From contig UYJD01000017.1 of the NCBI GenBank assembly GCA_900618795.1, positions 64,314-128,313 of the forward strand: DNA of 64,000 nt, read 5' to 3'. The stretch comes from Cyanodermella asteris. Lineage: Eukaryota > Ascomycota > Lecanoromycetes > Ostropales > Stictidaceae. Both the position numbers and the translations under genes were made by a program. The notes beneath the pieces are model-generated. The model had not been told where the DNA came from. It saw only the letters and a program-made list of their open reading frames with translations, and ran no database searches. Below, in pieces: positions 17,848-63,023 of the stretch (positions are counted from its first letter, which is position 1; each line of letters begins with the position of its first letter).

Positions 17848-18540
17848 CTGCAAAGTATGAAAAAATGGAAGGTCAGTCTTGAGCGGCGATATGACTAGTC
17901 TGAGCAGAATGTCTGAAATTGATATTTGATCGAAAAACCATGCATCCAGTATATTTCATGAAGCGCGAAGCGCGCTGCCTTGGGCTGATAATTATACGCT
18001 CTGAGACAGCGACCTCTTCGAAGACCGGACACGGCAGAGCCTGAAAGTATTGAAAGTTCTGTAGAGAGCTTGTCCGATTATCGCTATGGAGGTTCACGGA
18101 CCTCGATCGCCCTGCACCTCTGCATTGCACACGCAGAATGTTTCCAACTATTTCCCCCACGATCGCTGAATGCAGGCCAGGCCAGGCCAGACGAGAGATT
18201 AGAATAGGAAAGTGAAACAGCATACATGTTTGAACAAAGTAGGAGAAGTGCCAAAAAGCCGCCTCTCACCGACCGTTAAGATCATAGACACAGAGTTATA
18301 TCTTCAGTGCGAAGCAGATTGAGGTCCAGCGGTGTCGAAACATCACTTTGAAGATGCGGCGGTTTCGTGGACTTGAACATCCGTCCAGTGGGTCAGAATT
18401 GTGGTCAAACTTATGGCTGAATCGCTAGTCTCTCTTCTAGCTTTGACTCGTCCTCGCTCTAGCATGGACTGGATTGTTTCAGACATCGCGTTCAAATCTC
18501 ACCGTCCAAAGTAACGCCGGTGAGTTCATGGCCCCATCAA
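17848..18540. other. Upstream flank of the MFS pseudogene
   Basis: About 700 bp of non-coding sequence leading to the assembly gap. Small frames only. A GTTCAAATC string near 18489 resembles a tRNA T-loop, but no acceptor or anticodon stem can be drawn around it. Confidence 0.4.
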
Positions 18541-19082
18541 NNNNNNNNNNNNNNNNNNNNNNNNNNNNNNNNNNNNNNNNNNNNNNNNNNNNNNNNNNNN
18601 NNNNNNNNNNNNNNNNNNNNNNNNNNNNNNNNNNNNNNNNNNNNNNNNNNNNNNNNNNNNNNNNNNNNNNNNNNNNNNNNNNNNNNNNNNNNNNNNNNNN
18701 NNNNNNNNNNNNNNNNNNNNNNNNNNNNNNNNNNNNNNNNNNNNNNNNNNNNNNNNNNNNNNNNNNNNNNNNNNNNNNNNNNNNNNNNNNNNNNNNNNNN
18801 NNNNNNNNNNNNNNNNNNNNNNNNNNNNNNNNNNNNNNNNNNNNNNNNNNNNNNNNNNNNNNNNNNNNNNNNNNNNNNNNNNNNNNNNNNNNNNNNNNNN
18901 NNNNNNNNNNNNNNNNNNNNNNNNNNNNNNNNNNNNNNNNNNNNNNNNNNNNNNNNNNNNNNNNNNNNNNNNNNNNNNNNNNNNNNNNNNNNNNNNNNNN
19001 NNNNNNNNNNNNNNNNNNNNNNNNNNNNNNNNNNNNNNNNNNNNNNNNNNNNNNNNNNNNNNNNNNNNNNNNNNNNNNNNNN
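18541..19082. other. Assembly gap (542 N)
   Basis: An unbroken run of N. Frames that run through it are artefacts. The true length of missing sequence may differ from 542 bp. Confidence 0.99.
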
Positions 19083-20468
19083 ACCCAGACCTACGAGCAA
19101 CACCTTCAGACTTGACGCCGACCTTCACTGGTCGCCTACACAGTCAACCACCCCGTGCCCGCGTTACACAAGTGAGTCCCTGCCTGTTAGAGCTAGCACG
19201 TTTGCGCATGGGCCTTCCTCCATCGCACCGAAATACCTGCCCTTGACAGAGACCCTATGGCTCTTTCTCAGCTGAAGTTCGAGCCTGCAGTCGTCGCCTT
19301 ATTCGCCATCGTGTCCGTCCTAGCCGGGGTTGTCAACGAAGAGGAGGATGAAGCCTGGCCTTATGGCAGGTGGCAGGCACGCTAAGACGGAAGAGGAAAT
19401 GTACCGCAAAGCAGACGTTCTGTTGCGCCGCCTACCTTTGCGTTACACCATGCAAAGCACGCATCGGTCAGATTGAGGCGCGGTCAGGTGGTGCTGTTCA
19501 GGAATATTGCACTGAACAGCTTCAGAGGGCAAGTCTATGGCCAGAGCATAAGGCGAAACTTGACAAGAATCGAGTTCCCTCGGTCACAGTGCAGGGGCAG
19601 GAAAATGGATGCCGTGCGGTTTTGGATGGCTCATTTTGTAGCGCGGGATGAGTCTGCATCATTTCGGCATGAAAAGGATAGAGGGTTCAAGATACTGCCG
19701 CCTGATACCCAATAGCCGCGATAATGTCGTCCGATGCTACTTTCATAATTTAGTTATAAATTGTCCCACGTTGGCGATCTTTTCAACGTCGACTGTCCGT
19801 GATGATTGCTCGCATCTACCCTGTGCCCTGACGTTCTGACAAGGGAAGGAACCTGAAAGGCGGTGATTTGCTTTCCCGCTAGGTGCAAGTACCCTCTAAT
19901 CTCAGAGCAGATATTCGATTTATGCCAGATTTTGCGTGCAATATGACAAACAAGTCTAGAGCCGCAGTAGGTACGTTTTGGCAACATCGCGCCTGGCTGA
20001 TTCAGGTCTGTGAACACGAAACACAGTCGCATTTCCGGGGAGCGAATTGGATGATTGACAAGGAATGGCAAGGTCGAAAATCCAAGGGATCTCACACCGC
20101 TCGGCAAAGGCGACGGGCAACGAAGTCGGGAGTGTCGGTGTCATCGGAGATCCGAGACGAAGAACCGAAACAGCAAGGCTTACGCAACGTTTAAAGGGCA
20201 GCGGAAACAGCTCGCGGCAGAGCGTCTTCGCGTCAACGAACCGAGAACACAAACATATCGTCCCGTAGTCAACTTATCCGTTTTCAAATTTATCCACACG
20301 TCAGCCAGGTTTTCAACTCAACTCACCAATTTCCGGACGTCGCAGGGTGCTTCGGTGGCCGCATTAAAATATTCTTGGCTGCTCTCCCACACTTGTCTTA
20401 TCAGATCCGCGATCGTCAAACGTGCCTCGGCTACAGTTGCTCTGTACATCCCTAATATTGGATTCATC
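19083..20468. other. Non-coding region right of the gap
   Basis: No recognised gene. A 42-codon frame at 19257-19385 starts with a hydrophobic stretch (VVALFAIVSVLAGVV) followed by an acidic run and could be a tiny membrane or secreted peptide. It has no known relatives that I recall and may be chance. The right-hand part is the promoter and leader of the gene at 20469. The frame of that gene stays open upstream to 20055, but the extension has no conserved features and the ATG at 20469 is the natural start. Confidence 0.4.
19257..19385 (+). CDS. Possible 42-residue hydrophobic micropeptide
   Basis: ATG at 19257 to TAA at 19385. Residues 12-27 form a single hydrophobic helix, followed by NEEEDEAWPYGRW. 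It could be a signal anchor or a chance frame. No ortholog is recognised and the adjacent gap prevents testing for an upstream exon. Confidence 0.15.
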   Translation: MALSQLKFEPAVVALFAIVSVLAGVVNEEEDEAWPYGRWQAR

Positions 20469-35732: not shown

Positions 35733-38700
35733 CTAATATCTCAGTCTCCCTAGGATGCCATATGTATATGCAGAATCAGCTTCGTTACCGAACTGCATCA
35801 TGTACACCCTCACTCGTCCAGCATTGACGCCACCTTGCTTTGCAACCATGCCGCCCTCGAAATTCTCCCAAACGCTCACTGCAATACCAATTTTGCCTAC
35901 CGGCTCAAAACAGCTTTCACCGAGAGTGACATCAAGTAACGTCTGGAATGCGTCTGTCTTAGCACCTTTCTTAGGAAACCCCAGCACCACGATTCGCTTG
36001 TCAGTTGCGGTGACCTTATTGCCCAGGCTCGCATAGCCACTCGCAGACCGCATACCAACTCCGTGTCCGGGCTTGTTCTCGGAACTGGCGTGCTCTATTG
36101 GCACGGGCGATCCAGATACCACCGGGGCAGGTGATCCCCGACCAGAACGCAGAGCACTGTCTGGTCGCAGTATTTGAAGCTTAGCTGCGCCAAGGTCAGA
36201 CCATTTGCTGGTACTCTCTCGTAGGTAGAGTCTGATCTTGCAGTTGCTTATGCCCAGCGAGCCATCAGCCCCGTTGAACATCGATGAGGCCGAGGTTCCA
36301 GTGCTGGCGGTGCCTTCGCTCGAAGTGAACATGCTATTGCTGCCGCTACCTTGACGAGAAGTCACTGTCGAGCGGGCAATATTGAACCTTCCCGCTCCGC
36401 GACCGAGGTTGCGAATTGCTGACAGTGCAGAGCCCATGCTACTAATTGAAGATTCCGTATGCTTGCTGACAGACGGTGTCGTGACGCTAGAGGCTCGGTA
36501 GCTGTTCTTCCTTCCCAGACCAAACCACAATGACGCCTTTGCGAGCCTTGAATTGTTCTTCTGATCTGCTCCGTAGAATTGAGGATTGAAAGATGTTGCT
36601 CTTGCGTTCTGCAGAGCGATGTACGTTGGATTATTGATACGCGAATAATTGATTAGAGAGTACAAGATCTCACAATCCTCTGGAGTGGCCGATCGGAAAA
36701 GGAAGTTGTTGTTCGAACTCGATGTAGCTTTCGAATCAGGTGTAGGCGGTGATCTTATGGAAATGTCGAGCGCAGTTCCTCGCCGAATCGGAACCAAAGG
36801 CGTAAGCTCCAAGCCTAATAATAGCTGGCCTGCTGGAAGACCTGGGGATTTCCTATTGTTTGACTGAGGTGAAGGCGATGCCGAAATTGCTCGACCTTGG
36901 GGATTATGTCGTTCGTAAGCTTCGATCAAGCCTGGAGTTACGACAAGGAGACATTCTTCGGGCCAAAGTGGTTGCCAGGAGCCCTCGTCTGACCAAGTGA
37001 ACAACGATGCGACGGCTTTGCGCCCTTGGCCTGGTTGTGCAGGTACTTCTCGGTACGGTGCTTGAGATGCTGATTGAGAGGGAGACAACGTCCCGTCTGC
37101 CAGTGATTCCGGTGGGGTAGTCCGAGGCGCCTTACGATAGCGGCCTATTGCAGACATGGGAACCAGCACAGATTGCGTATCAGAGTCCTCGAGCTCGGAG
37201 TCCGACGAGGACCTGTCAGATAAAGAGCTGAGATCATGCACAACTGTAGAGGCATCGGATTCCTCGCCAGAGACACTAGAAACTGATGGTGCATATTCGT
37301 GCTTGAGTGGACTCGAGGTCCGGCGGTGTCCCCGTGCACCCCTGGATGTAGGTTCGGGGCTAGCTGTTCCAGCCTTCTGACCGGTAGTCGGTGTCAGAAT
37401 GGGATGCCCAGATGATTGTGCACGAGACAAATCCTGCTGCGCTATTTGCTCATGAGGATCAAGCTCTCTGGTGGGCGTTGATGGTGAGCTGTCAGTCGGC
37501 CGTTTCGGCAGCTGCAAATCCGGGGTGAACGAGCGGTTCCTGTGATAGCGTGACGGAGAGCTCCGCTTTTGAGCAGGTGAAGAGGATTCTGTGGATTGTG
37601 CTCTGCCTTCTGGGTCCACAGATCTATGATCCTGGGTCGGCGTAGAGGGCTGAGTTGTTGTGGAGCTTTGTCGGTCATTGACATCAGCTACAAAATGCTC
37701 GGCCGTCGTTGGGCTGGACAGCGAACTCTCATTGAGTTTGGATTGCCTCTGTGCCCGGGCCCGGTTGAGACCAGATCGGGGGCTGCCAGCCAGTTTCATT
37801 GCCTCATTGAGGTTGCGAGGCAAGCGGTCAAGTCGTTCTGCTTCGGGACCTGTGCCTCGACTTTCGCTGGCTTGCTCGAGAGTTGACGAGGTCTCTTCAA
37901 TGATGGTGCTAGGGCTATAATGTGGGTGGCGCTTTCTCACCCGTGAGTCGCTTGTATCTCTCCATTTCTTAACTTTGCCCTGTGCTCGTTCCCCAATAGG
38001 CACCTCGATCTGTGCCGCAGTCGATGGTGCTGAGGCGCCGAGATCGCTTGCTGCAGCATTGTCATCACTGAATCCCGATCCGGGCTTTGAAATTGGTCGC
38101 GTCGAGCTTGTGGCAAAGCTTCCAGGGCGTTTGGTCTCTGGGGGAACGGGTTCCAGTCCAAGCAACTGAACCCATTCAGGAGCTACATTTTCTTCCTCAG
38201 ATGTTAACAGCATCAGCTCATGCCAATTGTAGCCTTCACCATCTTCACCCCTGATCATAATTACAATCTCGCCCTCTGAATTGCCACTACGCGCCGATAG
38301 TTGATCAACGTGTAAAGGTGGGAAGAGCAGCCATCGGCCTGTGCCATCGATCTCAGCAATCAGCAAGTCTCCAGCGTTACCAATATCAGGAGGATCCTCC
38401 CTTAATGCGATCTCGACAGTGCAATCCAATCTTTGTCCACTTGAATGTGGGAGGTTCAGCACAAAGGTATCTCGTGCTTTGACACGTCTCTTGGGATCAA
38501 CGACTACTCCTTCCACCGGAGCCAAGGTTCGCGGGTCTCTCGCTTTGGTGGCGTCCGTGGCAGCAGCAGTTTGATCCTCAAGCCGAGAACGCTCCTCGTT
38601 CGAGCGTTTTCGGGCATGTTCAACCAAGTCTCGATAGGTTTTCGTCAAGCCTTCGGCCTGCGACGAAGGGTGTACATGGTTGATTCCATGCATAGTCTTG

Positions 38701-41438
38701 GCTAAGTATTTGAGACGAACGAGAGGCCGCTTCAGCAGGAAGGCAACATCTACACGCTCGCCGTTGCTGTCAACGATATCACCATTTGTGTCACGAGACA
38801 GACCTTTATTCAGAGTCTCGAGTTCATGGTTGCTGTCCTGTGCCGCCAGGTTGACAACAACGTCCTGGAAGCCTGCCCTCCAGGCTCGAAGGTATTCTGT
38901 ATAGAAACGGGCTCCGGTCTTTGCCCACGTTAAAAGTGTCAAAGGATCTTTGGATGGTGCCTTTCCGTGGTGTGTTTTGAGCTTCTCGAGTGCTATCCCC
39001 ATGTCAAATATGGGTTTCGCCACATTCTCCTGCGACTGTCCCGCTGAGTCTGACTGAAAAAGTTTGGAGGTAACCAGCGAGCTTTTCGAAGACAGAGAAT
39101 TCGAAAGGAGAACTGGAATAACGCCATCAACCAAAGTATACAATTCCCGCATGTACTTTGCCTCATCAGATGAAAATTCGTTCAGGATGTCGTCAATCGT
39201 GGCCGTTTCTAGCCTGCTTCTGTATGTACGAATGCTCCGTGCAGATCGTATACTGGTGCCTGAATGCTTGGGGTTTGAGAGAACAGAGATGAGATCCGAA
39301 TGCTTCGCTAATCGACTGCTGCGACTTGCAGATCGGCCGACCCGGTCATTTGGTTGGTTGCGAGAGCCAGGGTGTTCGCGGTTCCGGGAGAAAGGCTGTG
39401 GCTGTTCCTCGCGATGTTGAATCCAGTTGCGCTCACTTTTGGTCAAAGGTTTCCTGGTCCTGCCTACAAAACTCAGATCCTCAGGAATCTCGTCGTCAGC
39501 ATCAAGCGAGGATTCGAAATCAGTCGGAGCGAGCGAATCAGGTCTCCTGGTCGTATAACGAGGAAGCTTTTCTGTGTGTGAAATAGTATATCCCCGTGCA
39601 CGCGGCGAACCTTGACGTTGTGCTCCTCTCCGCCTCAAGATCGGCGAATCAGGAGAGTCCACAGATTCGTCGACGTCTTCGGTAGTCACCGTACCGTCTC
39701 TATGATATATGACTCTGCGCAGCCGCTTTTTCTTGTTGGCTTCATCCGCATCCGTGTCAGCTGTCTGCTTGCTTGTGCTGGTCTGCGACGCCTCGACTTG
39801 GGACTCGCGCGAATCGTCAGCAGAGCGGACGTCTTCGCTCCGCGATCGCGCGCTCGCTTTTGGTCTCCTGCTGGGCGAATCTTCACGACTCTTAATGTTC
39901 AGTGGAAGAGGGATATCAATGGTCTGCTTCTGACCATCCGCTGAAAAGGGGTCACCAGCATGATCGAGCCAAGATTCAATGGTTGGGACTCGTGCTGTTC
40001 CAGGTGGGATGTTGGGTATAATGTCGATTTTGGGTTCTGGCTTCGAGAAGATCTTGGCAGCGTGAGCGAATATGTTCTTCTTTTGCTTGCTGCCACTAGA
40101 TCGCTTGGGTCGACGTCTTGAGATTGAGGTGAGATTGTCTGAATCGTCTTGGGAAGAGTACGAGAGGTGCGACGCTGGGGGTGTAGCGGCTGAAGCGGCT
40201 GAAGCAACAATGATGCGACCACCTGGGCGCCAGAATTTGCCATCCGAAGGCGCAACAGAAGTTGGTGCTGAATGTGTGCGTGTGTGTTCCGAGCGAGTGG
40301 CTCTTGTCAAGCGCTCCGTTGGCGATCCGCGTGATGATATACTTGGCCCTATATCTGCCGGTTGGGATCTGGTGTCATCGTCTCGCTTGTGAAAGCCAGA
40401 TCCTTGAGCATCGAGGTCCGCGCCTGTGTTTGAGCTTGTGGGCCGTCCATATGCAGCTCTCCTGGCTTCGACACGCTCTCGGCGCTTCCGGCGTCGTTCC
40501 TCGTGGCGACGATCCCTCTCTCGCTGAGCATCCACATCGGACATCGGCGTCACTCGAATACCATCGTCCGGAAAAGATGCTCGTTCTTCGGTGGTGCCCT
40601 GCTCCTCGACAATAATGCGTTCCTCAGTAGGAACGCCGTTCAGCCATCCTTCTACTGTGGGTTTTGGCGGGGGAGTCGGAATCGATGCTTCCTTGGGCGG
40701 CGTTCTCTTACTCCTCCAGTGGCCGTCACTAACGACCCGCTTTTTCGGAGTTGCTGCTTCCTGGGGTTTGTCGATGGGCTCAAGCTTGGATTTCCTTGCC
40801 AAAGCTGCTGCTAGTGCCTGTTTCCTCATCTCAGCCTTGCGCTTAGCTTCCGCCTTCTTCTCAGCCGCTGCTTCAGCTTTGGCCTCTGCATCCTTGACAG
40901 CCTCGGCCTCTCTTCTCGCCTCGCTTAGGCGCCGCAAACGTTCGGATGGTCTAACTGTAGGTCCGATAATCGCTTGCGCAAGTCGTAGTTTGGCCGCAGA
41001 AACATCACGCTGCTTTTTCGCCGCACTGGGCGAGTGAGGTTTTGTTGGTGTTGCTGGGTCTGGCTTCGTGGGCTCGCCGGCCTTCTTTGAATCAAAGCTG
41101 TCTGGCGTACCATCGGCTCCCTTCTTTTCCGTTCCTTGTGCGCGAGCAGTGTTGGTTACATTCGTTGCCTTGCTCTTCTCCGAGGTGGGTTTGCGATTCG
41201 AGGGCGAAGTTGTAGCTGACTTGACGGTTTTCGCACCCTGACTTGTCGCCGGTTCTGAAAAGACTTCCGGCGCAGTTTTGACCCCGCCTCCTTGCTCTTG
41301 CCATTGTCGAACCCTGTCCTTGACCGACGGGCTCTTATCATCGAAGGCTTTTGCGATAGCCGCCTTGTTGGCAGCCTTGGCCGGCGATGCCGCGGGACTG
41401 GTCTGCTTGGTGATACGTCCGGTTTGCGGGGTCGGCAT
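35733..41438 (-). CDS. Large scaffold protein with Dbl-homology-like core
   Basis: One uninterrupted exon of 1901 codons, ATG at 41438. Residues 1-740 are low-complexity and basic, with a Lys/Ala/Glu-rich coiled-coil-like stretch near 175-215 (EAEAVKDAEAKAEAAAEKKA) and a short conserved box, VPTIESWLDHAGDPFS, near 490. Residues about 745-960 look like a RhoGEF/Dbl-homology helical bundle: TIDDILNEFSSDEAKYMREL, LLTWAKTGARFYTEYLRAW and LLKRPLVRLKYLAKTM. A PH-like segment follows (about 1000-1140), with DTFVLNLPHSSGQRLDC and YNWHELMLL. Long Ser/Pro-rich stretches separate this from a second PH-like region near 1490-1620 (WQPLWPEECLLVVTPGLIEAY) and a conserved C-terminal domain. A role in polarity or Rho signalling at the cortex is an inference. 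Whether the Dbl-like core is catalytic cannot be judged by eye. Confidence 0.75.
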   Translation of the reverse strand: MPTPQTGRITKQTSPAASPAKAANKAAIAKAFDDKSPSVKDRVRQWQEQGGGVKTAPEVFSEPATSQGAKTVKSATTSPSNRKPTSEKSKATNVTNTARAQGTEKKGADGTPDSFDSKKAGEPTKPDPATPTKPHSPSAAKKQRDVSAAKLRLAQAIIGPTVRPSERLRRLSEARREAEAVKDAEAKAEAAAEKKAEAKRKAEMRKQALAAALARKSKLEPIDKPQEAATPKKRVVSDGHWRSKRTPPKEASIPTPPPKPTVEGWLNGVPTEERIIVEEQGTTEERASFPDDGIRVTPMSDVDAQRERDRRHEERRRKRRERVEARRAAYGRPTSSNTGADLDAQGSGFHKRDDDTRSQPADIGPSISSRGSPTERLTRATRSEHTRTHSAPTSVAPSDGKFWRPGGRIIVASAASAATPPASHLSYSSQDDSDNLTSISRRRPKRSSGSKQKKNIFAHAAKIFSKPEPKIDIIPNIPPGTARVPTIESWLDHAGDPFSADGQKQTIDIPLPLNIKSREDSPSRRPKASARSRSEDVRSADDSRESQVEASQTSTSKQTADTDADEANKKKRLRRVIYHRDGTVTTEDVDESVDSPDSPILRRRGAQRQGSPRARGYTISHTEKLPRYTTRRPDSLAPTDFESSLDADDEIPEDLSFVGRTRKPLTKSERNWIQHREEQPQPFSRNREHPGSRNQPNDRVGRSASRSSRLAKHSDLISVLSNPKHSGTSIRSARSIRTYRSRLETATIDDILNEFSSDEAKYMRELYTLVDGVIPVLLSNSLSSKSSLVTSKLFQSDSAGQSQENVAKPIFDMGIALEKLKTHHGKAPSKDPLTLLTWAKTGARFYTEYLRAWRAGFQDVVVNLAAQDSNHELETLNKGLSRDTNGDIVDSNGERVDVAFLLKRPLVRLKYLAKTMHGINHVHPSSQAEGLTKTYRDLVEHARKRSNEERSRLEDQTAAATDATKARDPRTLAPVEGVVVDPKRRVKARDTFVLNLPHSSGQRLDCTVEIALREDPPDIGNAGDLLIAEIDGTGRWLLFPPLHVDQLSARSGNSEGEIVIMIRGEDGEGYNWHELMLLTSEEENVAPEWVQLLGLEPVPPETKRPGSFATSSTRPISKPGSGFSDDNAAASDLGASAPSTAAQIEVPIGERAQGKVKKWRDTSDSRVRKRHPHYSPSTIIEETSSTLEQASESRGTGPEAERLDRLPRNLNEAMKLAGSPRSGLNRARAQRQSKLNESSLSSPTTAEHFVADVNDRQSSTTTQPSTPTQDHRSVDPEGRAQSTESSSPAQKRSSPSRYHRNRSFTPDLQLPKRPTDSSPSTPTRELDPHEQIAQQDLSRAQSSGHPILTPTTGQKAGTASPEPTSRGARGHRRTSSPLKHEYAPSVSSVSGEESDASTVVHDLSSLSDRSSSDSELEDSDTQSVLVPMSAIGRYRKAPRTTPPESLADGTLSPSQSASQAPYREVPAQPGQGRKAVASLFTWSDEGSWQPLWPEECLLVVTPGLIEAYERHNPQGRAISASPSPQSNNRKSPGLPAGQLLLGLELTPLVPIRRGTALDISIRSPPTPDSKATSSSNNNFLFRSATPEDCEILYSLINYSRINNPTYIALQNARATSFNPQFYGADQKNNSRLAKASLWFGLGRKNSYRASSVTTPSVSKHTESSISSMGSALSAIRNLGRGAGRFNIARSTVTSRQGSGSNSMFTSSEGTASTGTSASSMFNGADGSLGISNCKIRLYLRESTSKWSDLGAAKLQILRPDSALRSGRGSPAPVVSGSPVPIEHASSENKPGHGVGMRSASGYASLGNKVTATDKRIVVLGFPKKGAKTDAFQTLLDVTLGESCFEPVGKIGIAVSVWENFEGGMVAKQGGVNAGRVRVYMMQFGNEADSAYTYGILGRLRY

Positions 41439-51543: not shown

Positions 51544-52359
51544 TACAACGATGCTATATGAAACGACTTTTGCAATGTCAACTATTGCGAAATGATTTTG
51601 CACATTTTAAAACCACTCATTTGTAATGAATGCTCCGTCATTTAGCTTTGTACGATTTTTGCTAAATGCTGAGTGACGTGTCTACATATTCAAGCTAAGG
51701 GTACCGAATTTGCAGCTAGTCTTTTCCGCTTTATAATATTTTCATTTTCTTCGATGATAGTAATGTAAACGGGAGCTAGTGTGACATTCTAGCTGAATAG
51801 GCCAAAAGACCTCTAATAGTAGAAAACGGTACTACCTACATCTAAACCTCTATGCAAAGCGCACCGTCTGAAGTAATGCTGATTGAGCTTCAAATTTTAC
51901 TCAATGCTTTACGTAACTAAAAGTCATAGGGAAGTTGGTTGAAATCTTCTGGACAGAAGTGTATTTTATTGCCTAAATAAGGGATGACCTTAAATCACAC
52001 TATGATAGGTTAGTCATTTGACCCTGCTAGGGTTTGTAAGTATGAAATGCTTTACCATTAATGTATAGTTGCAACATCGGCGAAATATAGTCATACTAAA
52101 GTAATATATCATTAAGGTACTTAGCAAAGTAACGGTCTTTTAAGTAAGATTATCTTCCTTATTTTCCGCACTGATAGATTAAAATCTGAATGATACCTAA
52201 ATTATTGTATTACAGTATATATTTTCACATAAAAAAACATAGACCATACAGTACTTAGAGAACGTTATTCTGGTTTTCAATAGATCAAAGCGGCACTACA
52301 GATATTAATTTTCAAAGTCGATTAACTACTTACAGGCACGCGAGGGGTATGGCGCCGCA

Positions 52360-53090
52360 GTAGTGCAATCGTTGCCTCACAATTACATTATTGTGACGAT
52401 GGCATTACAGCGCTACGTAACCTATGCAATACTACAGTAGTACTGTACTAGCATTATAGTAGCATTGCTAGTCGTTGTCATATTGCGGCAATGTTATGGT
52501 GATATTGTCACTTATAGTCATATGACAGGAAAGTCGTAGCAAGGTTACGCAAGATTAAGCATAATGACTGAGAAAGAATCACTAATTTACTAAGAGACGT
52601 TACTGTCAGAGTTTTACAGGAGCATTTAGAGGGCTTATAGGGGATCTAGCAGCTATACTATCTACGAAATTAACTAAGTCACTTACAACTAGCTTGAGCC
52701 TCTGCTAAACGCCTTTAAATGTATCACCTAGGTCAAGTATGTATTAACTCCTGAGCTTTACTTATTTTAATAATAGAGGTAGGACAGTAGAGTAAAATAG
52801 AGCAACTCGTAGATAAGTAATAGTAGCACAAGTAAATAGGTCGGTAGGTACCTACTCACTTTATTTAATTTCATAATAGCTATATTGCATGATATTACTG
52901 CAACATCACCGTCACAAAAGTCATAACATCTTATTGGAATGAGACAGTAACATACAGTGATATTATGCAATCTGTTGCTTTGATAGTACAATTTTGTTGT
53001 AATATCACCATGACTTCGCGTAATGTTACTGCAATATTGCATAATGTTGCAAATCAAATTGTATCATTGTGACGCTATGTCACTCTTAGA
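52360..53090. repeat. Island of degenerate short motifs (GTGATATTRC / GCAATATTGC words)
   Basis: Words such as GATATTACTGCAACATCACC, GTAATATCACCATGAC, ACTGCAATATTGCATAATG, GTGATATTATGC and GGTGATATTGTCAC recur in both orientations at irregular spacing. The shared core is RTGATATTRY and its complement, often next to GCAATATTGC, a perfect palindrome. The period is not fixed, so it is not a clean tandem repeat. A second, smaller patch with the same words lies at 53760-53870. Confidence 0.5.
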
Positions 53091-53759
53091 CAATAGAGCA
53101 TTTTTTAATATCCTTATGAGATATTCTGATTTGTATTTTACTGTCTAGAATAGCGTAGAGAAGCAATTTGAAGCTCGATAGGAAAGAGGATATATGAAGA
53201 ATTTTACATTTTCAACCCGCTTATGTCATAAAGTACTGTAATAATATTTTTAAAGGTAAGGAAGGATATTTCACACATTAGAAACGTCTTAATTACCAAG
53301 GTCTCTCCTGCTTAGAAGGAACTTATGGTCAGATTGTTCAAACTTTTATTTTGGCTTTGAAATGGCTATAATATACAATGATACGCGTAATGTTATATTA
53401 GACTTAATCATATCCCGGTGGCATACATATAAAACAGTAAAACGGTTTTCTGGGAGTGGATATTTGACCAATGCTCTAAAGTAGTATAGATGTAATTGTC
53501 AACATTGTTATAAATTCTTTGCTTTCTCCTACTAAAATATCACGACATATTTATAAATCGGTCTCAAGCCTAGTGACACGACTGTCATGCAATCATGATG
53601 CTATGATCATGTAATCGTGATAATTAATATTGATCACACAGTTAAGATACTGTGAAGATTTAATCCTAGTATTCATGTCGCATGATAGGTTGTCAGCATA
53701 CTATGAAGTTGAATTAATGTCAAACTATTGGCATAAATTGAATGATGCTGGAAAGATGT

Positions 53760-53870
53760 CACAGCTATAGTATAACATGTTACTAAGCAATATCACAGCA
53801 ACGCTGAATTGATTCCATTAGAATATGGCACGTTTTGACGCAATATCACACCGATAACACGCCGTGTTCG
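53760..53870. repeat. Second patch of AATATCAC-type motifs
   Basis: Contains AAGCAATATCACAGCAACG and GACGCAATATCACACC, related to the words at 52360-53090. Just to the left, at 53587-53640, a string of imperfect inverted ATGATCAT/ATCATGAT words occurs. Confidence 0.4.
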
Positions 53871-53950
53871 TCTAAAGGTAATCTAGAAATAAGTGAATAG
53901 TCTTAGATTTTACTGCTAAAATATTCTAATAGAGTTTAGCAAGCTAAATA

Positions 53951-54016
53951 GGGAGCCCAAGTTCTTAAATTACTATTCATAGTAAAAAAAAAAAAAAAAA
54001 AAAAGGAAGCCCAAGT
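53951..54016 (+). mobile_element. Poly-A-tailed micro-insertion with target-site duplication (retroposon 3' end)
   Basis: GGGAGCCCAAGT (53951-53962) recurs with one G-to-A change as GGAAGCCCAAGT (54005-54016). Between them are 21 bp of unknown sequence and 21 A residues (53984-54004). A direct repeat flanking a short body and a poly-A tail is the signature of target-primed reverse transcription by a LINE-type machinery. The body is so short that it would be an extreme 5' truncation, and no family can be named. The nearly pure A run suggests the insertion is younger than the mutated DNA around it. Confidence 0.55.
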
Positions 54017-55064
54017 AGACTGACTTGCTTGGTGTCTTGAAACTGTCTACATAGTCTACAAGCAAGGCGCAATATGTCATCATAGCTAGATGACTACTAA
54101 TGAATTCTACTTCTAAATCCTTCAATTGCCTTTACGGAGATATATAAGTGTGAGGTCTGGTAAGAAAATTTCTGAATTAACAAGATTAAATACTACTAAT
54201 AGCTAGAGTTGTAAAGCACTTCTTCCTAGGATTGTAAAGAGCAACTTGTATAGGACTCTAAGGTAAATACTTATGACAAGTATCTAACCACCAAGGGTAG
54301 TAATAGCGGGTAATAATACAGTGTTTTTACTTCTTCATAGTTGTAATAATATTATACCGTTATTATAAGCTAACGGCGACAGTGCTACCCTTTGCTATCA
54401 TTTGTAACAAGCAGATTATAGATTAAAACAATCCGCTTTTAACAATGCAAGGAACGGAGTGCAGCTGTCAAACATGATTTAAAATTACACACCTGGGACA
54501 ATATAACCTAGACGCCGCTGATGTCACACTAGCGTAATATTAAAAACTCTCTGAACCAATTTTTTGTATCTGTCGCATATTTTCTCTTCCGCAAAGAAAC
54601 TGAGCGAGACATGTTTTATGGGAAAAGTTAACTTACTCAGCATCCATTGATTGCCTGTATAGCTGAGTTATTTAGTCTTAGATTATGTTGTATTACGTCG
54701 CCTTTTTCTAAATCAATTTATCACGGATATTTACTTCAATTTCCACGTAAATGCAACATAGGATTGCTGTATAATTACAGTAGTACTTTCTATTATTACC
54801 GTCAACTATATCCTATAAAAGCTTGAAAAAAGCTTAGTATACTGCAGCAATTTTTTCTGTTATTATAAAAATATGATATCAAGTAACGTTGCAGAATTGT
54901 GATCAGCTTGTGGGACAGAGATACAATGATATAAGGCGATTCTATAAAGATTTTACGTAGCTAACAATTCAAATTCAACGTAATTTCAAGTGTAAGCAAC
55001 AGATTATAAGTGGTATAAAAAACGCTGTATTATTTATACAGTTACTTGCTTTGTTTAGTATAGA

Positions 55065-55077
55065 TATATATATATAT
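55065..55077. repeat. Short (TA)n tract
   Basis: A run of about six TA units inside the AT-rich block. Confidence 0.8.
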
Positions 55078-56849
55078 CAAAAATGAGAATGAATAGCGTA
55101 AAGATATTAGTAGACAACACAATCCTTCCGCTAGAATCATTCATGCTGTAAGCTGCGTGAGAGTGTAACTTATATTAAGGCAATAGCTGCTCTTACCAAG
55201 AGACTGCAAAGTTTACTTGCAACTAGAATAATTGTTCCTAGACGGGACTATATTTAATAAGTTCTATTAAACTAATACCGACCACCCTGTCGACGCTGAA
55301 GTCAATGTTTATGTTAAGGACGATGTTCCAGATCTAAGTACTGTTAGTGACGTCTTATTGCTGTTATGTAATGTTAGAACATCCTAACTTCATATTGCAA
55401 GATGGTCGTAACAGTATAATGTCTTTGTACTCTGTTTGAAAATAGTAAAGCAGAGAGAAATAACATGGCTAAAATGTCAAAGAATAGGTAAGTCAAGGCC
55501 ATTATGATTTTTATATGACTAAGTATTTCACTGCGAACAGGTATTGTCAAAGTCCCTATACTGACGTAATTATAGTATCACAATAAGTTCATAAAAAACT
55601 ACAGTCTTTGCATTATTTCAACATATATGGCCTGTGCTTGTAGGCTTCAATCCACAGTTTAAATGCAACTAGAGCACTGCTACCAATATACAAAGTATAG
55701 CTTAAGTGGATCAGTCCCTTGAAAAGTGATTGGAATTTAATAAAAGTGCAGCCTAGAGTAAAGTAACTAGATGACTGCAGTGCTATTTTGTTATATATAG
55801 TAGCATGAAAAACTCAAACTATGAGCGATGCTACTTGAAGTTAAGCGATAGATTGGCTATAGCTCTACCAATGCGCCAGCCGTATACAAAGACTACAGTA
55901 TAGACAAGTTACAAAGATTAATATATTGCTGACTCAATAATCAAAAGACCAATTTTGAGAAATCAAATGATAGTCAGTTTCTAAATAATTGAAGCTTGAT
56001 TTTTGAGCTTCAGAGCTTCTCTGCAAATCCAACCTGAGAATTTGCATGAAAATAGTATTATATAAAAAATAGCTCGAGGGTAATGGGCTTGTTCCTCTAT
56101 TACACTAAGTAAGTTCTGCCACATGAGAGCAATTATAGAAAAGGTTCAACTAGATATTATCTGCCACTTAAATCTTAAGATTGCATTATTTACTGTAGGT
56201 ATCTATTTGATTTTACAAAAAAGCCTTACATCTTTTTGAGCGAAAATGTAGTAAAAAAAACACGGAATAATGCAATGATGGTATCAAATACAGACCTTTC
56301 AATACATACAAGACTTTAAAGCTGTTTTCTTTGAAGTTCTTCAACTTAGCATCTATAATGTGTCACAAAAAAATCATGGAGAGAGTATCGTACTCTGATT
56401 AGAGCATAAGAACTTTGGATTAGACTAAGAGTGTACTTTTTTACTCCTGATTACAATTGCATGCATTACTAACCACAGTAAAGTGCTACTAGAATAATGT
56501 CACTTGTAAAGAGTATTAAAAGTGTATTCTTGTACGCATGGAAGAGCTTTTAATTACCTATTGCAGTTTAGATATGACAAGCGTTTTCTTGATATGTTAT
56601 AGATCTTTATAAGGTAGTAGTACTCCAACAGATTTCACTAATAGTCTACTATATGCTTACAAATATATTTCAAGTTATAAGCTCTTACATTAGGTACTTA
56701 AGAGATGGTTAACTTGCAACTGCTGTGGCTGCTATACTTATACTTTATTGCTGACCTTGCAATTGGACGATTAGAATATTAAGCAGAGTAAAGTACAATC
56801 AACATTAAAAAAGAGCGAATTTGCAGTATCTGCTTTCTATAAGGCCGCA

Positions 56850-56891
56850 ACGATCTGTTATCGATACAACACGATCCGTTATCGATACAAC
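56850..56891 (+). repeat. 21-bp tandem duplication around TATCGATA
   Basis: ACGATCTGTTATCGATACAAC (56850-56870) is followed at once by a second copy with one T-to-C difference (56871-56891). Each copy contains the palindrome TATCGATA. CG-rich words (GTCGCGCGATATCGAG) follow directly, which is unusual for this AT-rich block. Confidence 0.8.
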
Positions 56892-58210
56892 AGATTGTCG
56901 CGCGATATCGAGATGCTGTAATCTGGACTTCATAATTGTATATGGCAAATATAGCTGAAATCTCTGATAGCCATGCAATTGTTCTTCACAGTATAGTCTA
57001 GTCTTGCAATTGCACTAATAACTTAACTGAACTGTATTACATTTCATATCAACAGTAAAGTATCAGAATTGAGTTGCTGTGATCTTGCAATGACGCTACG
57101 CCCTACTTAGGCTTCAATTCTACAGTTAGCCTGCGCAATTAATCCAATTTATGCTTAGAGCTAGGTATTTTAAAATTGATATTATGAAGCTGGACTATCG
57201 CAGAGTAACAAGTTTACTTAGTATAATGCCTAAATTGTAAGGGTTTGGTTCTTTAATAATTTAGTAAAAGGCAAATCCTCTTTCTATCATTCAGTTATAG
57301 GTTAAGTGAAGAGATTCATCTTTAATCTTCTAGTTTAATATTTGCAAGCTTAGAATTAAATCATTTTGAATTTGTGAAAGCAAAGTATTCAACCCTTTAA
57401 TGATTTGGATTAGCGCTATAGAGATCCTAGGTTATTTTCTCACGAAAAAAAAATTACCGTGGTGTTATATAGGCTTTAGTTACTGCATCCATATAAGTAT
57501 ATTAAGAGTTTGTTTAGATTAGTAATATGCCAAAGTTGTTACTGATTACTATATTCTTCTTGTTATTAACATTGACATACAATATGTTTGCTTTGCTTAG
57601 GCAATACATCATAGAAACCCAATAATGTAATGAGTAATTAAACAATAAAAAAGCAGCAGTATTATGTAGTAACACAGTAGTAACCTCATAGCAAAGTAAT
57701 GAAATGTCACAGACTCTTTGCTGTTATGTAGCTGTAGAATGTAAACTTATTACATTACTATTTATGATCTTTGCAATGGTAAAATTGCTAAGTACCAACA
57801 CATTATGTAGTCTACCTAACACTACGTAGCAAAAAGTAGTCACTCAGTAGGTTAGTTTCTAGTCCTACTACCACCTAGATGACAGGCTATCTATCACACT
57901 AGACTATATATCTTAAATTCTGAGCGATAGTAAGTCACAATTTACATAGAGCTATACTAGAGTAGAACTAGTTTCTACCTGAAATAGGAGGCCTGGCCCA
58001 AGGTTACTAGCTAGTCAAGCGTTTTCAATTTAAAGAAATCAAGCCTAATAGAATCAATGATAAATAAGTTCTACCTTCGCTCAATTACTTCAGTCCTGCC
58101 GGCTAAACACCGCTATCGAAGCATGGATTATTGTTGATCTCGGCCAATTAATTCTTCAGCGTATGGCTGCGCAACATTATTGCTGTACTACTACAATGCT
58201 ACAGCAATAA

Positions 58211-58325
58211 TATTATATTATATTATATTATATTATATTATATTATATTATATTATATTATATTATATTATATTATATTATATTATATTATATTATATTA
58301 TATTATATTATATTATATTATATTA
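58211..58325 (+). repeat. (TATTA)23 microsatellite
   Basis: A perfect pentanucleotide array, 115 bp long, of 23 copies of TATTA, with a few degenerate flanking copies. Its purity suggests recent expansion and probable length variation. Confidence 0.97.
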
Positions 58326-60100
58326 TAATAAGAAGATACATGAATGAGCGGTGGTTTTCCATTACTATTCTATATTTATCTAGCTTGCGTTATAAAAATT
58401 GTTTACTGTCATAGATAGGCTGCCGTTACATAATGACTCCACTTATCTGATGCTATATATTATATCTCTAAAGCTTGTGAGTCGCATATACGGCAGCGAT
58501 TCAATAAGTTACATAGAGCAATATGTTGCAAGGCATTGGGATCACTCGATAATTAGATTACAACCATAGCTTTAGTTCCGATTCTTGTAAGTCCAGGGTA
58601 GCGCAGCATCGAATTATTGTATCCGTTATAGGAATCTTTGCTACAATTCTATTTTACTTATCAAATTGCTTTCATATTACGCAAATAGTTGTAGTATTTC
58701 TGTACATCTAGCTAGTATTACCCTTTGTTATATCGTTGTAATTACTGTCTTATTTCAATAAACCGCAAAATGAACGCTATGAGGTAAAATGCCATACTGT
58801 AGTAGCGTTATCTCAATGTTTCAACACAAATCATCATCTTCATTTTATAGAAACTTAATTTACCTCTCGTTAATCCTAAACACAAATCGCGGGAAACTAT
58901 CACGACACTCTTCTATCGTTTTCAAGGAGAGAAATGCTGTGCCAAGCAAAATCATGCTATCACACTATGAAGACATATATTCCAGAGTTTTATAAAGCTT
59001 TAAACATTACAAAGTAGAGAAAGGTCAGTCTTAAGCAACTAATTATGCATGGAGTATACTAAATATCATAGATATGATACTTCTTTAACGCAGTCAAAAC
59101 ATTGATAAGACTGTCATTTCTTTTAATTATTATATCAAGTAGTTATAAAGGCTTATGCTCTGTAACATCAATTTAGACTTGTTGGAGAACAATATGCGCT
59201 TCACTTCTCCTTTATTACTTAAGATGGCTATCTATTAGGCTATTTACTCATCCATAGTAAGTATTTGTTAATAGCTAACTGCTTGTTCATTTATAATACA
59301 AACAGAATAGTAGAAAAGAATATTTCATTCGTATTTAGGCAACAGTAAGTTATAGTCTCTTCATAGCTAAATAACACTTCAAATTGATTTCATAATGTGA
59401 ATATAGTATTGCAATTCTAAACATCATAACACTATAATAAGACAAACTCATAATATTATAGCTATATTTAATAATACTCGGAAAGGATTCTCAGCTGCTA
59501 TTAGCTATTTTAGCCTATGGAAATCCGACAATAAATGAAGTTTCTTTAGACTCAGCTGATTTCTTTGTCTGCACGATGAAATGCTATTGTAATAACGTTA
59601 CGAATTTATATTAATCAGCAATACTACTATAACATAGCTAGGATATGATGATGGTGACATTATACTCCTATCGAGTCTATCTTATCAGACTATTAGGGCT
59701 AGTCCAGTATCTATTTATCTTCGCGGGCGAGAAAACCCTTAGTAAGGGTAGAAAAACTCTCTCTATATTCTTTGCATGCTTCGAACGCTGTCGCCAGTCC
59801 TTCTCGTACCCATAATAGCTAGGATATTGGATCCAGAAATAATAATACCGAGTCAGTGTTCTACTCTGCTTTATTGATGTGAGATTATCATGAGATCGTT
59901 TTCTGATTATAGATTACTATGCGATAGCAAAACGCTCTTGTTGCAATAACTTTACACGGGTAGTGCTATTATATACCCTTTTCATGCATTTCAAAAAAAA
60001 TAAAAAATACTAAATACTACTAATTTTAACGGTCGTTGTAAGATTTAATAAGTGTACTATTGTTAGCTCCGTCTGGACCCTCGCTGACATAGTGAGAAGT

Positions 60101-60603: not shown

Positions 60604-61250
60604 CTACTCGACCTGCTTGTCGAACGTCTCGCCGGCAACGAGGTCGGGGATGTCGTCATCGTCGTCATCGTCGTCATCGTCCTTCTTCTCACCGTCACCG
60701 CCCTGCTGCTTCTGCATGGCCTGATAGCTCTCAGCCAGCTTGCGCAGCGACGCCAGACTGTCGGGACCGAGCTGGTTCAGGATACCGGGGACAAGCTCTG
60801 TCAATTCCTTCTCCTCGCCAGCACCGTAAATGGCGAACGTGTTGGACGGGACCGAGGCGTGGACTGGACGATATTAGCTACGACTCTTTCGTAATGTCGC
60901 CGATTCGTTCATACCCTTCGGTGCTGAGAAGTGGATCACATTGCCATCCTCCTTGAACATGTTCACCTCTTCAATGGCCTGGATTGGCTGCACATTGAGC
61001 TTCTTCAAGGACTGCTGGAGCTTGCGGTCGTCTGTTCCAGAGCTCTTGTGGACCTTCTTGACCTTTCGGCGCGGGGTGCCCTTGCCACTGATGTGCGTTA
61101 GTCTTTCTCGCTCCGTGCTGGTTGTGGTCCTGTCGAGGATCGATTGCGACTTACCCTGTGCTGGTCAGTACATGCCTTGTGCTATTCGTGAGTGTACAAC
61201 ATACCTATCCGCACCGAGGCCTGCATCTTAGCGAGCTTTGCTGTATCCAT
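60604..61250 (-). CDS. EGD1: Nascent polypeptide-associated complex subunit beta (Egd1/BTF3)
   Basis: The protein is 159 residues. Exons: 61250-61205, a single G at 61155, 61087-60915, and 60863-60604. The introns are 49 bp (GTATGT, TACTGAC, CACAG), 67 bp (GTAAGT, GACTAAC, ATCAG) and 51 bp (GTATGA, GCTAAT, TCCAG). Only with the one-base exon does the frame read [16 protein letters not shown], then [20 protein letters not shown], the invariant N-terminus of NAC-beta. The rest is canonical: [53 protein letters not shown] and [20 protein letters not shown], the NAC domain that pairs with NAC-alpha. The basic RRKVKK motif contacts the ribosome near the exit tunnel. The C-terminus has ten consecutive Asp, encoded by a GAC/GAT repeat. 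The complex binds nascent chains in the cytosol. The product is certain; the splicing is unusual. Confidence 0.93.
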
Positions 61251-62039: not shown

Positions 62040-63023
62040 TCACCCAGCACTGTTAGCCATGGCTCTCGTCACTTGCCCTGCCGCCCTCCCAAGCTCTCCA
62101 CCGTGTCGCTTCGCAACCTGAAGACCCTGATGAATGGTGTATCGAAATTGCGTCTCGAATATGGCATTCCGCGCAGTAACGTCTGCGTACAATTGGTTCT
62201 CAACATTAGTTGGGGCATCGAAAAGACCAAGCCGAGCAAACGGCTTCGCATGTTGCGGAATCAGGTGCGGACAGAAGCCCATGTATGGATCGATCGTCCC
62301 AGTGTCCAGCTTTTCGTCGAGTTTCAGTCCGAGATTGAGGAAGGCTGCGAGCGCGTCGAGAACCTTGACCATCAGTTTCGGCTCCTTGTTTAGCTTCTCG
62401 ATGGCGTTTCCACCACCAGACCACTCCTTCGTCGCCAACCGGTTTTTGTCATCGTGTTTCCAGCCGAGCAGAAGCAGGAAACATTTCAGTATCTTATACC
62501 ATCCCCCCGGACACGACACGAGGCTGACACCGAAAGTCTCGGAGGCCCAGTCCAAGACATCTAAAGCTGTTCGACAGACTCCGCTGGCAATGTGTGTCAT
62601 CCCGGTCTGAAGATACAACACCGTTTTGGCCTCAAAGCCCCGACATTGTTCCGTAGGCAGCGTGCGTAGCAGAGCCAATAGCTGTTCTCTCACGGCAGAA
62701 CTGCCATCTGTGATGAGCGGCAAGGCCTTCTCGAGCACGGATTGCGTGGGAACCTTCGTTCGTGTGGACGCGTTGACCAGAGCTGCCAAAGATTCCTTTC
62801 TCTGTGACTCGGAGCGTGAGCTAAGATGTGCGACATGTGTCGTTACCTGTGTGTTCAGCGACGGCAGGTCCGTGGAGAGAGCTTGATTCTTGAGAATGAT
62901 TCCCTTGGATCTGAAGCTAGTATTGGTCACGTTTGAGGCAGTTGGACGTGTTTTTCCGACCTTGAGCTTCGGCTTCAGGAAATCTGCCTTCTTAGCCTTT
63001 TGCTTGGCTTTGCTGGAACCCAT
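62040..63023 (-). CDS. IPI1: Pre-rRNA-processing protein Ipi1 (TEX10-like)
   Basis: One exon of 327 residues, ATG at 63023, close to the 334 residues of yeast Ipi1. The N-terminus is Lys-rich (MGSSKAKQKAKKADFLKPKL) and shows the family motif KVGKTRPTASNVTNTSFRSK near residue 22, followed by the Ipi1/TEX10 domain: LSSRSESQRKESLAALVNAS and LPLITDGSSAVREQLLALLR, then HEAT-like helices to about residue 250. Ipi1 belongs to the Rix1 complex (Rix1-Ipi1-Ipi3), which acts in the nucleoplasm to remove ITS2 and mature the pre-60S particle. No intron is needed. Its neighbour NAC-beta also serves translation, but nothing indicates joint control. Confidence 0.93.
   Translation of the reverse strand: MGSSKAKQKAKKADFLKPKLKVGKTRPTASNVTNTSFRSKGIILKNQALSTDLPSLNTQVTTHVAHLSSRSESQRKESLAALVNASTRTKVPTQSVLEKALPLITDGSSAVREQLLALLRTLPTEQCRGFEAKTVLYLQTGMTHIASGVCRTALDVLDWASETFGVSLVSCPGGWYKILKCFLLLLGWKHDDKNRLATKEWSGGGNAIEKLNKEPKLMVKVLDALAAFLNLGLKLDEKLDTGTIDPYMGFCPHLIPQHAKPFARLGLFDAPTNVENQLYADVTARNAIFETQFRYTIHQGLQVAKRHGGELGRAAGQVTRAMANSAG

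Follow-up and report, generated by a model that had tools for sequence, protein, structure and literature searches.

A predicted one-nucleotide exon between two complete introns in the NAC-beta gene of Cyanodermella asteris

Introduction

Can a coding exon be as short as one nucleotide and still be needed for a conserved protein to be read? This question is raised by a minus-strand gene of the ascomycete Cyanodermella asteris, located towards the end of the stretch of contig UYJD01000017.1 analysed here (64,000 nucleotides, hereafter called the window). A first-pass annotation of this DNA, made from its letters alone, had read the gene as NAC-beta, with two complete introns separated by a single G, and had proposed that these introns have to be spliced out in succession. 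NAC-beta is a conserved, ribosome-associated protein, and its gene is normally well expressed.

Gene structure and protein product

The coding part of the gene is organized as follows, in the order of transcription:

61205..61250, minus strand: coding exon 1, 46 nt, 15 residues plus the first G of a Gly codon, from the alignment with human BTF3
61156..61204, minus strand: intron A, 49 nt, GTATGT / TACTGAC / CACAG, phase 1
61155..61155, minus strand: candidate one-nucleotide exon (G), which supplies the second base of the Gly codon GGT
61088..61154, minus strand: intron B, 67 nt, GTAAGT / GACTAAC / ATCAG, phase 2
60915..61087, minus strand: coding exon 3, whose first base is the T that completes the Gly codon, followed by GGC AAG
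60864..60914, minus strand: intron C, an ordinary intron, 51 nt, GTATGA / CTAAT / CAG
60604..60863, minus strand: last coding exon, with the stop codon

Coding exon 1 ends with ATA-G at 61205. Introns A and B are both GT-AG introns, each with its own branch site, and the single G stands between a canonical AG and a canonical GT; the donors of both introns are, in our judgment, consensus-like. The branch A lies 9 nt before the end of intron A, and 10 nt before the end of intron B and also of intron C. Intron A, the single G, intron B and the start of the next exon had been placed by the first-pass annotation at 61204-61156, 61155, 61154-61088 and 61087, respectively, and both these positions and the motifs given with them are correct. 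Upstream of the coding part, a probable 5' UTR intron of about 54 nt was read by eye at 61370-61317 (minus strand; GTAAGT...TATTAAC...GCAG).

When spliced with the one-nucleotide exon, the ORF encodes 159 aa and ends at 60604. Its product matches the Pfam NAC domain PF01849 (E 4.9e-24), about 40 of whose 57 positions fall in coding exon 3; the gene is NAC-beta (BTF3/EGD1 family). Joining G, G and T gives Gly and restores the conserved motif in the 159-aa ORF, as the first-pass annotation had claimed, and the restored protein aligns with human BTF3 without any gap across the exon junction, so that this Gly is what a very distant orthologue would lead one to expect at this place. The 12-residue motif had, moreover, been called invariant, a term that is too strong, as human BTF3 reads differently there. 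Yeast Egd1 is shorter in the junction region but keeps a Gly-Gly.

A six-frame search of the 28.5-Mb genome for PF01849 returned two matches, namely, the NAC-beta gene and a second site on the same contig, whose ORF we take to be NAC-alpha-like. As the only other NAC match reads in this way, no second beta copy was found by this search. The NAC-beta gene (at about 125.2 kb) and the apparent NAC-alpha gene (at about 162.2 kb) are, thus, carried by one contig, only about 37 kb apart.

Comparison of splicing pathways

In order to compare the possible ways of splicing this region, we enumerated every intron of 25 nt or more with GT-AG, GC-AG or AT-AC ends in the interval 61250-61000, taken out in one or two steps, with two-step pathways including both adjacent and nested introns. 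None of the 596 single introns restored the conserved protein start over this interval, and, among the 120,292 two-step pathways, only two restored the conserved protein. These two pathways are the A/B pair in its two removal orders, in agreement with the earlier claim that either order yields the same mRNA; neither is nested, and no nested, GC-AG or AT-AC solution was found among the pathways enumerated for 61250-61000. Apart from the one-nucleotide exon, no splicing solution that brings the conserved protein back was found, and the observation is confirmed as real at the sequence level.

Twenty-eight single-intron GT/GC-AG paths (introns of at least 35 nt) keep more than 150 aa open, with RIGGKGT retained in none of the 28; many two-intron paths, among those listed, likewise leave more than 150 aa open, and a long open frame alone is, thus, not decisive. 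The one-nucleotide exon is set apart by two things combined, the exact conserved sequence that it gives and the fact that both introns are complete. The single-intron path that comes closest uses GTTGTA, a weak donor located 4 nt past GTATGT, joined to ATCAG; removing this 113-nt intron keeps the frame open at the cost of one residue, as it gives 160 aa with an extra Ile (RIG-I-GKGT). Splicing would, however, have to bypass the better donor GTATGT just upstream in favour of one that does not fit GTRNGT, the residue would be added where the human BTF3 alignment has no gap, and the internal twin site (a branch site and an acceptor, then a donor one G further on) would be left unexplained; we regard this path as extremely unlikely.

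One has to keep in mind that pairs of U2 introns excised consecutively are described in filamentous fungi under the name of stwintrons ([D1,2], [D5,6] and others; PMC9024468, PMC5639578, PMC6616335, PMC12403724). In such a stwintron, one intron would be nested in a splice element (donor, branch site or acceptor) or in the body of the other, and all the intervening sequence would be removed. In favour of this reading, two introns of ordinary size lie close together, splicing them takes consecutive reactions, and the organism is probably a filamentous fungus; the sequence contradicts it, as the 120,292 two-step pathways hold no nested solution. The mRNA must also keep one nucleotide, whereas stwintrons, as described in PMC9024468, are removed whole. 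At NAC-beta, by contrast, both introns are complete and one base is kept; since neither solution is nested and one G must remain, the pair is not a stwintron, a reading to which we give almost no weight, and the distinction already drawn by the first-pass annotation holds. A zero-length exon, or recursive splice site, was also considered and rejected: it needs an AG directly before the GT, and the arrangement here is AG-G-GT.

Consequences of mis-splicing

Removing everything between GTATGT and ATCAG as a single 117-nt intron, which is equivalent to skipping the one-nucleotide exon, was rejected, as it shifts the frame and gives a 42-aa product; the frameshift had been correctly anticipated. 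The acceptors CCAG, CACAAG and AATAG had been said to give extra exons of 6, 21 and 27 nt, and paths with these exons are indeed found among those listed. A stop is reached after 22 codons if intron A is retained, after 16 if intron B is retained, after 22 if both are retained, after 42 if the one-nucleotide exon is skipped (117 nt out) and after 44 if CCAG is used for intron A with intron B removed; with CCAG used for intron A and intron B retained, 183 aa stay open and the conserved motif is destroyed. Mis-splicing at the A/B pair is, for the most part, unproductive.

This last path, one of the 28 single-intron paths mentioned above and open in frame, might correspond to alternative splicing, in which cutting intron A at the upstream CCAG and keeping intron B would give a protein of 183 aa, with extra residues inserted close to the region that binds the ribosome. 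It would, however, swap the conserved Gly for 25 other residues, with an acceptor that ends only 4 nt past the branch A and in spite of the complete signals of intron B. Such a product would be at most a minor isoform, and we find its occurrence highly improbable. As an addition to the reading with a one-nucleotide exon, one may also imagine that skipping this exon yields a frameshifted mRNA for decay and, in this way, regulates the output of the gene. The early stops fit this idea (42 codons for skipping, 22 and 16 for retention of intron A or intron B), but early stops are common in mis-spliced mRNAs and there is no sign of regulation here, so that we consider such a role improbable, if less so than the minor isoform.

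Chance occurrence and intron size

We estimated how often the internal twin site would arise by chance by leaving 6 nt at the start and 26 nt at the end in place and dinucleotide-shuffling the interior (n = 40,000). A branch site followed by YAG, G and GTRWGT in a usable position arose in 1 of the 40,000 shuffles (2.5e-5), and the same twin site with any middle base arose in 2 of the 40,000; two looser twin-site motifs arose in 5/40,000 and, for the loosest, 24/40,000. We also scanned 194 kb on both strands, that is, the window plus 13 stretches of 10 kb (including 3,935 bases N), where the strict motif occurs once, at NAC-beta, and the loosest one 3 times. A genome-wide pattern made of a CTAAC branch and AG-N-GTAAGT, which does not cover the NAC-beta site, whose branch is CTGAC, was found 0 times forward and 0 times reverse, against 8 and 9 times for the reversed control pattern; perhaps this genome avoids placing a strong donor immediately after strong signals for branch site and acceptor.

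The shuffles bear on another explanation, in which the assembly has lost one base at an exon edge and an ordinary single 117-nt intron is masked as a result. One extra G, closing exon 1 or opening exon 3, would be sufficient to put a single 117-nt GT-AG intron in frame. This explanation nevertheless leaves a branch site, an acceptor and a donor, spaced by one G, inside the intron without a cause, a coincidence seen in 1 of 40,000 shuffles, and we judge it very unlikely.

In our heuristic set of introns with strict signals (n = 14), the median size is 64.5 nt and 1 of the 14 is at least 110 nt long; in the loose set (n = 83), which very likely contains false introns, the median is 76 nt and 22 of the 83 reach at least 110 nt. 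A single 117-nt intron is unusual here rather than impossible and, as the heuristic set is noisy, intron size alone lends weak support.

Proposed mechanism

We hold it to be very probable that this NAC-beta gene is functional, with the Gly codon GGT spread over three exons, the middle one 1 nt long, and with the two introns spliced out consecutively. Introns A and B, both complete and of the U2 type (49 and 67 nt), would each be recognised by intron definition and taken out in two consecutive reactions, whatever their order, the intron still present acting as a temporary exon flank for the first reaction. The sequence itself shows the gene structure, the reading frame and the uniqueness of the splicing solution; we infer the use of this exon by the cell and also the sequential removal, the latter from a spatial argument: as one nucleotide cannot hold splicing factors for both sides, introns A and B would have to leave in two successive steps. 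The APC11 study discussed below argues along similar lines (PMC4674806). The three bases before the donor of intron B are AGG with or without intron A, since exon 1 and intron A both end with AG; the near context of this donor is, therefore, independent of the order of removal. As the gene is normally well expressed, transcript evidence should come easily, and the order of removal should be measurable.

Known one-nucleotide exons

Published cases indicate that the nuclear machinery does splice one-nucleotide exons, including one in an AG-G-GT arrangement in Fusarium. This Fusarium exon, in CYP621A, is documented by 20 orthologues and by 18 RNA reads, of which one retains intron sequence (Nelson & Syed 2026, PMC12940212). 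CYP621A and NAC-beta have in common nuclear introns, a single G in AG-G-GT and the place of this G, second in a conserved Gly codon; in both, the span is about twice the usual intron, with 139 nt in CYP621A (where the median is 56 nt) and 117 nt in NAC-beta. They differ in that CYP621A is a P450 with orthologue and read support, whereas the NAC-beta case is known from sequence alone.

In plants, the constitutive one-nucleotide coding exon of Arabidopsis APC11 is described as tested with reporter constructs (Guo & Liu 2015, PMC4674806), and its authors suggest intron definition and recursive splicing, one intron after the other. APC11 resembles NAC-beta in being a conserved gene with a one-nucleotide coding exon; unlike NAC-beta, it is a plant gene, its nucleotide is A, and it is reporter-tested. 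The one-nucleotide microexons of APC11 and VPS55 are described as conserved across diverse land plants, as supported by both RNA-seq and RT-PCR, and as absent from annotations (PMC8831610); as with NAC-beta, the genes are conserved, and the VPS55 donor is GTRAGT. Among fungi, a 20-nt microexon is described in Trichoderma (PMC11121469).

Both features of a one-nucleotide exon that can be looked for in a sequence, that is, the need of the frame and of the protein for one base and the completeness of the flanking introns, are found in NAC-beta. No report of a one-nucleotide exon in NAC-beta was found among the matches listed in the open-licence literature. The first-pass annotation is very probably right about this exon, and its interpretation is supported; it had missed the precedents of APC11, VPS55 and CYP621A. 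Since these one-nucleotide exons are published with transcript evidence, the arrangement in NAC-beta is rare without being new in kind, a new example of a known rarity. If confirmed, it would be, to our knowledge, the second nuclear gene of a fungus in which such an exon is known. Annotation and read mapping are reported to miss such exons often (PMC12940212, PMC8831610), and the gene may, for this reason, well be misannotated in this species.

Origin of the intron pair

We searched the 28.5-Mb genome for a second copy of the 131-nt span including both introns (skipping simple repeats and very common words) and found none; as the span matches only itself, an introner-like element was rejected. 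A common descent of introns A and B was not retained either: their best local match is 8 nt, a length reached by 343 of 3,000 shuffles, and their resemblance is, thus, no better than that of shuffles. An RNA fold joining the outer splice sites was also rejected, the span being less stable than its shuffles, 193 of 200 of which fold at least as well. With no second copy, no resemblance between A and B and no special fold, an introner, a recent intron duplication and a symmetrical stwintron are all unsupported.

Two scenarios remain: either a second intron was gained 1 nt from an existing one, or a long intron lost a boundary base and was rescued by a cryptic AG-G-GT exon, the latter being the proposal of Nelson and Syed for CYP621A (PMC12940212). 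The introns occupying phase 1 and phase 2 of one Gly codon, the pair might also be an intermediate of one-nucleotide intron sliding, which we regard as conceivable but rather unlikely. Were it true, the loss of either intron would leave a lineage with an intron position off by one base relative to its relatives. Fekete et al. 2017 reportedly proposed a stwintron-based route for a single-nucleotide intron shift; sliding here would, in contrast, pass through two complete introns and a one-nucleotide exon. With phases 1 and 2 side by side, such a pair also provides a concrete case for testing how introns come to look as if they had slid by one base. A pattern search for orthologue DNA in two collections of prokaryote and viral contigs gave 107 and 37 matches, none of them a relative, as expected from the content of these collections.

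Genomic surroundings

Rfam and tRNA scans of the 64-kb window found nothing. The apparent GC content of 18001-20000 is lowered to 0.38 by 542 bases N. Beside NAC-beta, positions 52001-60000 form an AT-rich block, with 32-34% GC against mostly 50-57%, and a TpA/ApT ratio of 1.02-1.20 against 0.40-0.79 elsewhere; this block may consist of old repeats altered by repeat-induced point mutation. An uninterrupted ORF at 35733-41438 (minus strand) encodes 1901 aa with DH, PH and EVH1-like domains. The ORF adjoining NAC-beta, at 62040-63023 (minus strand), encodes a product of 327 aa bearing an Ipi1_N domain, which is linked to 60S ribosome maturation, and lies beside the gene of a ribosome-associated factor.
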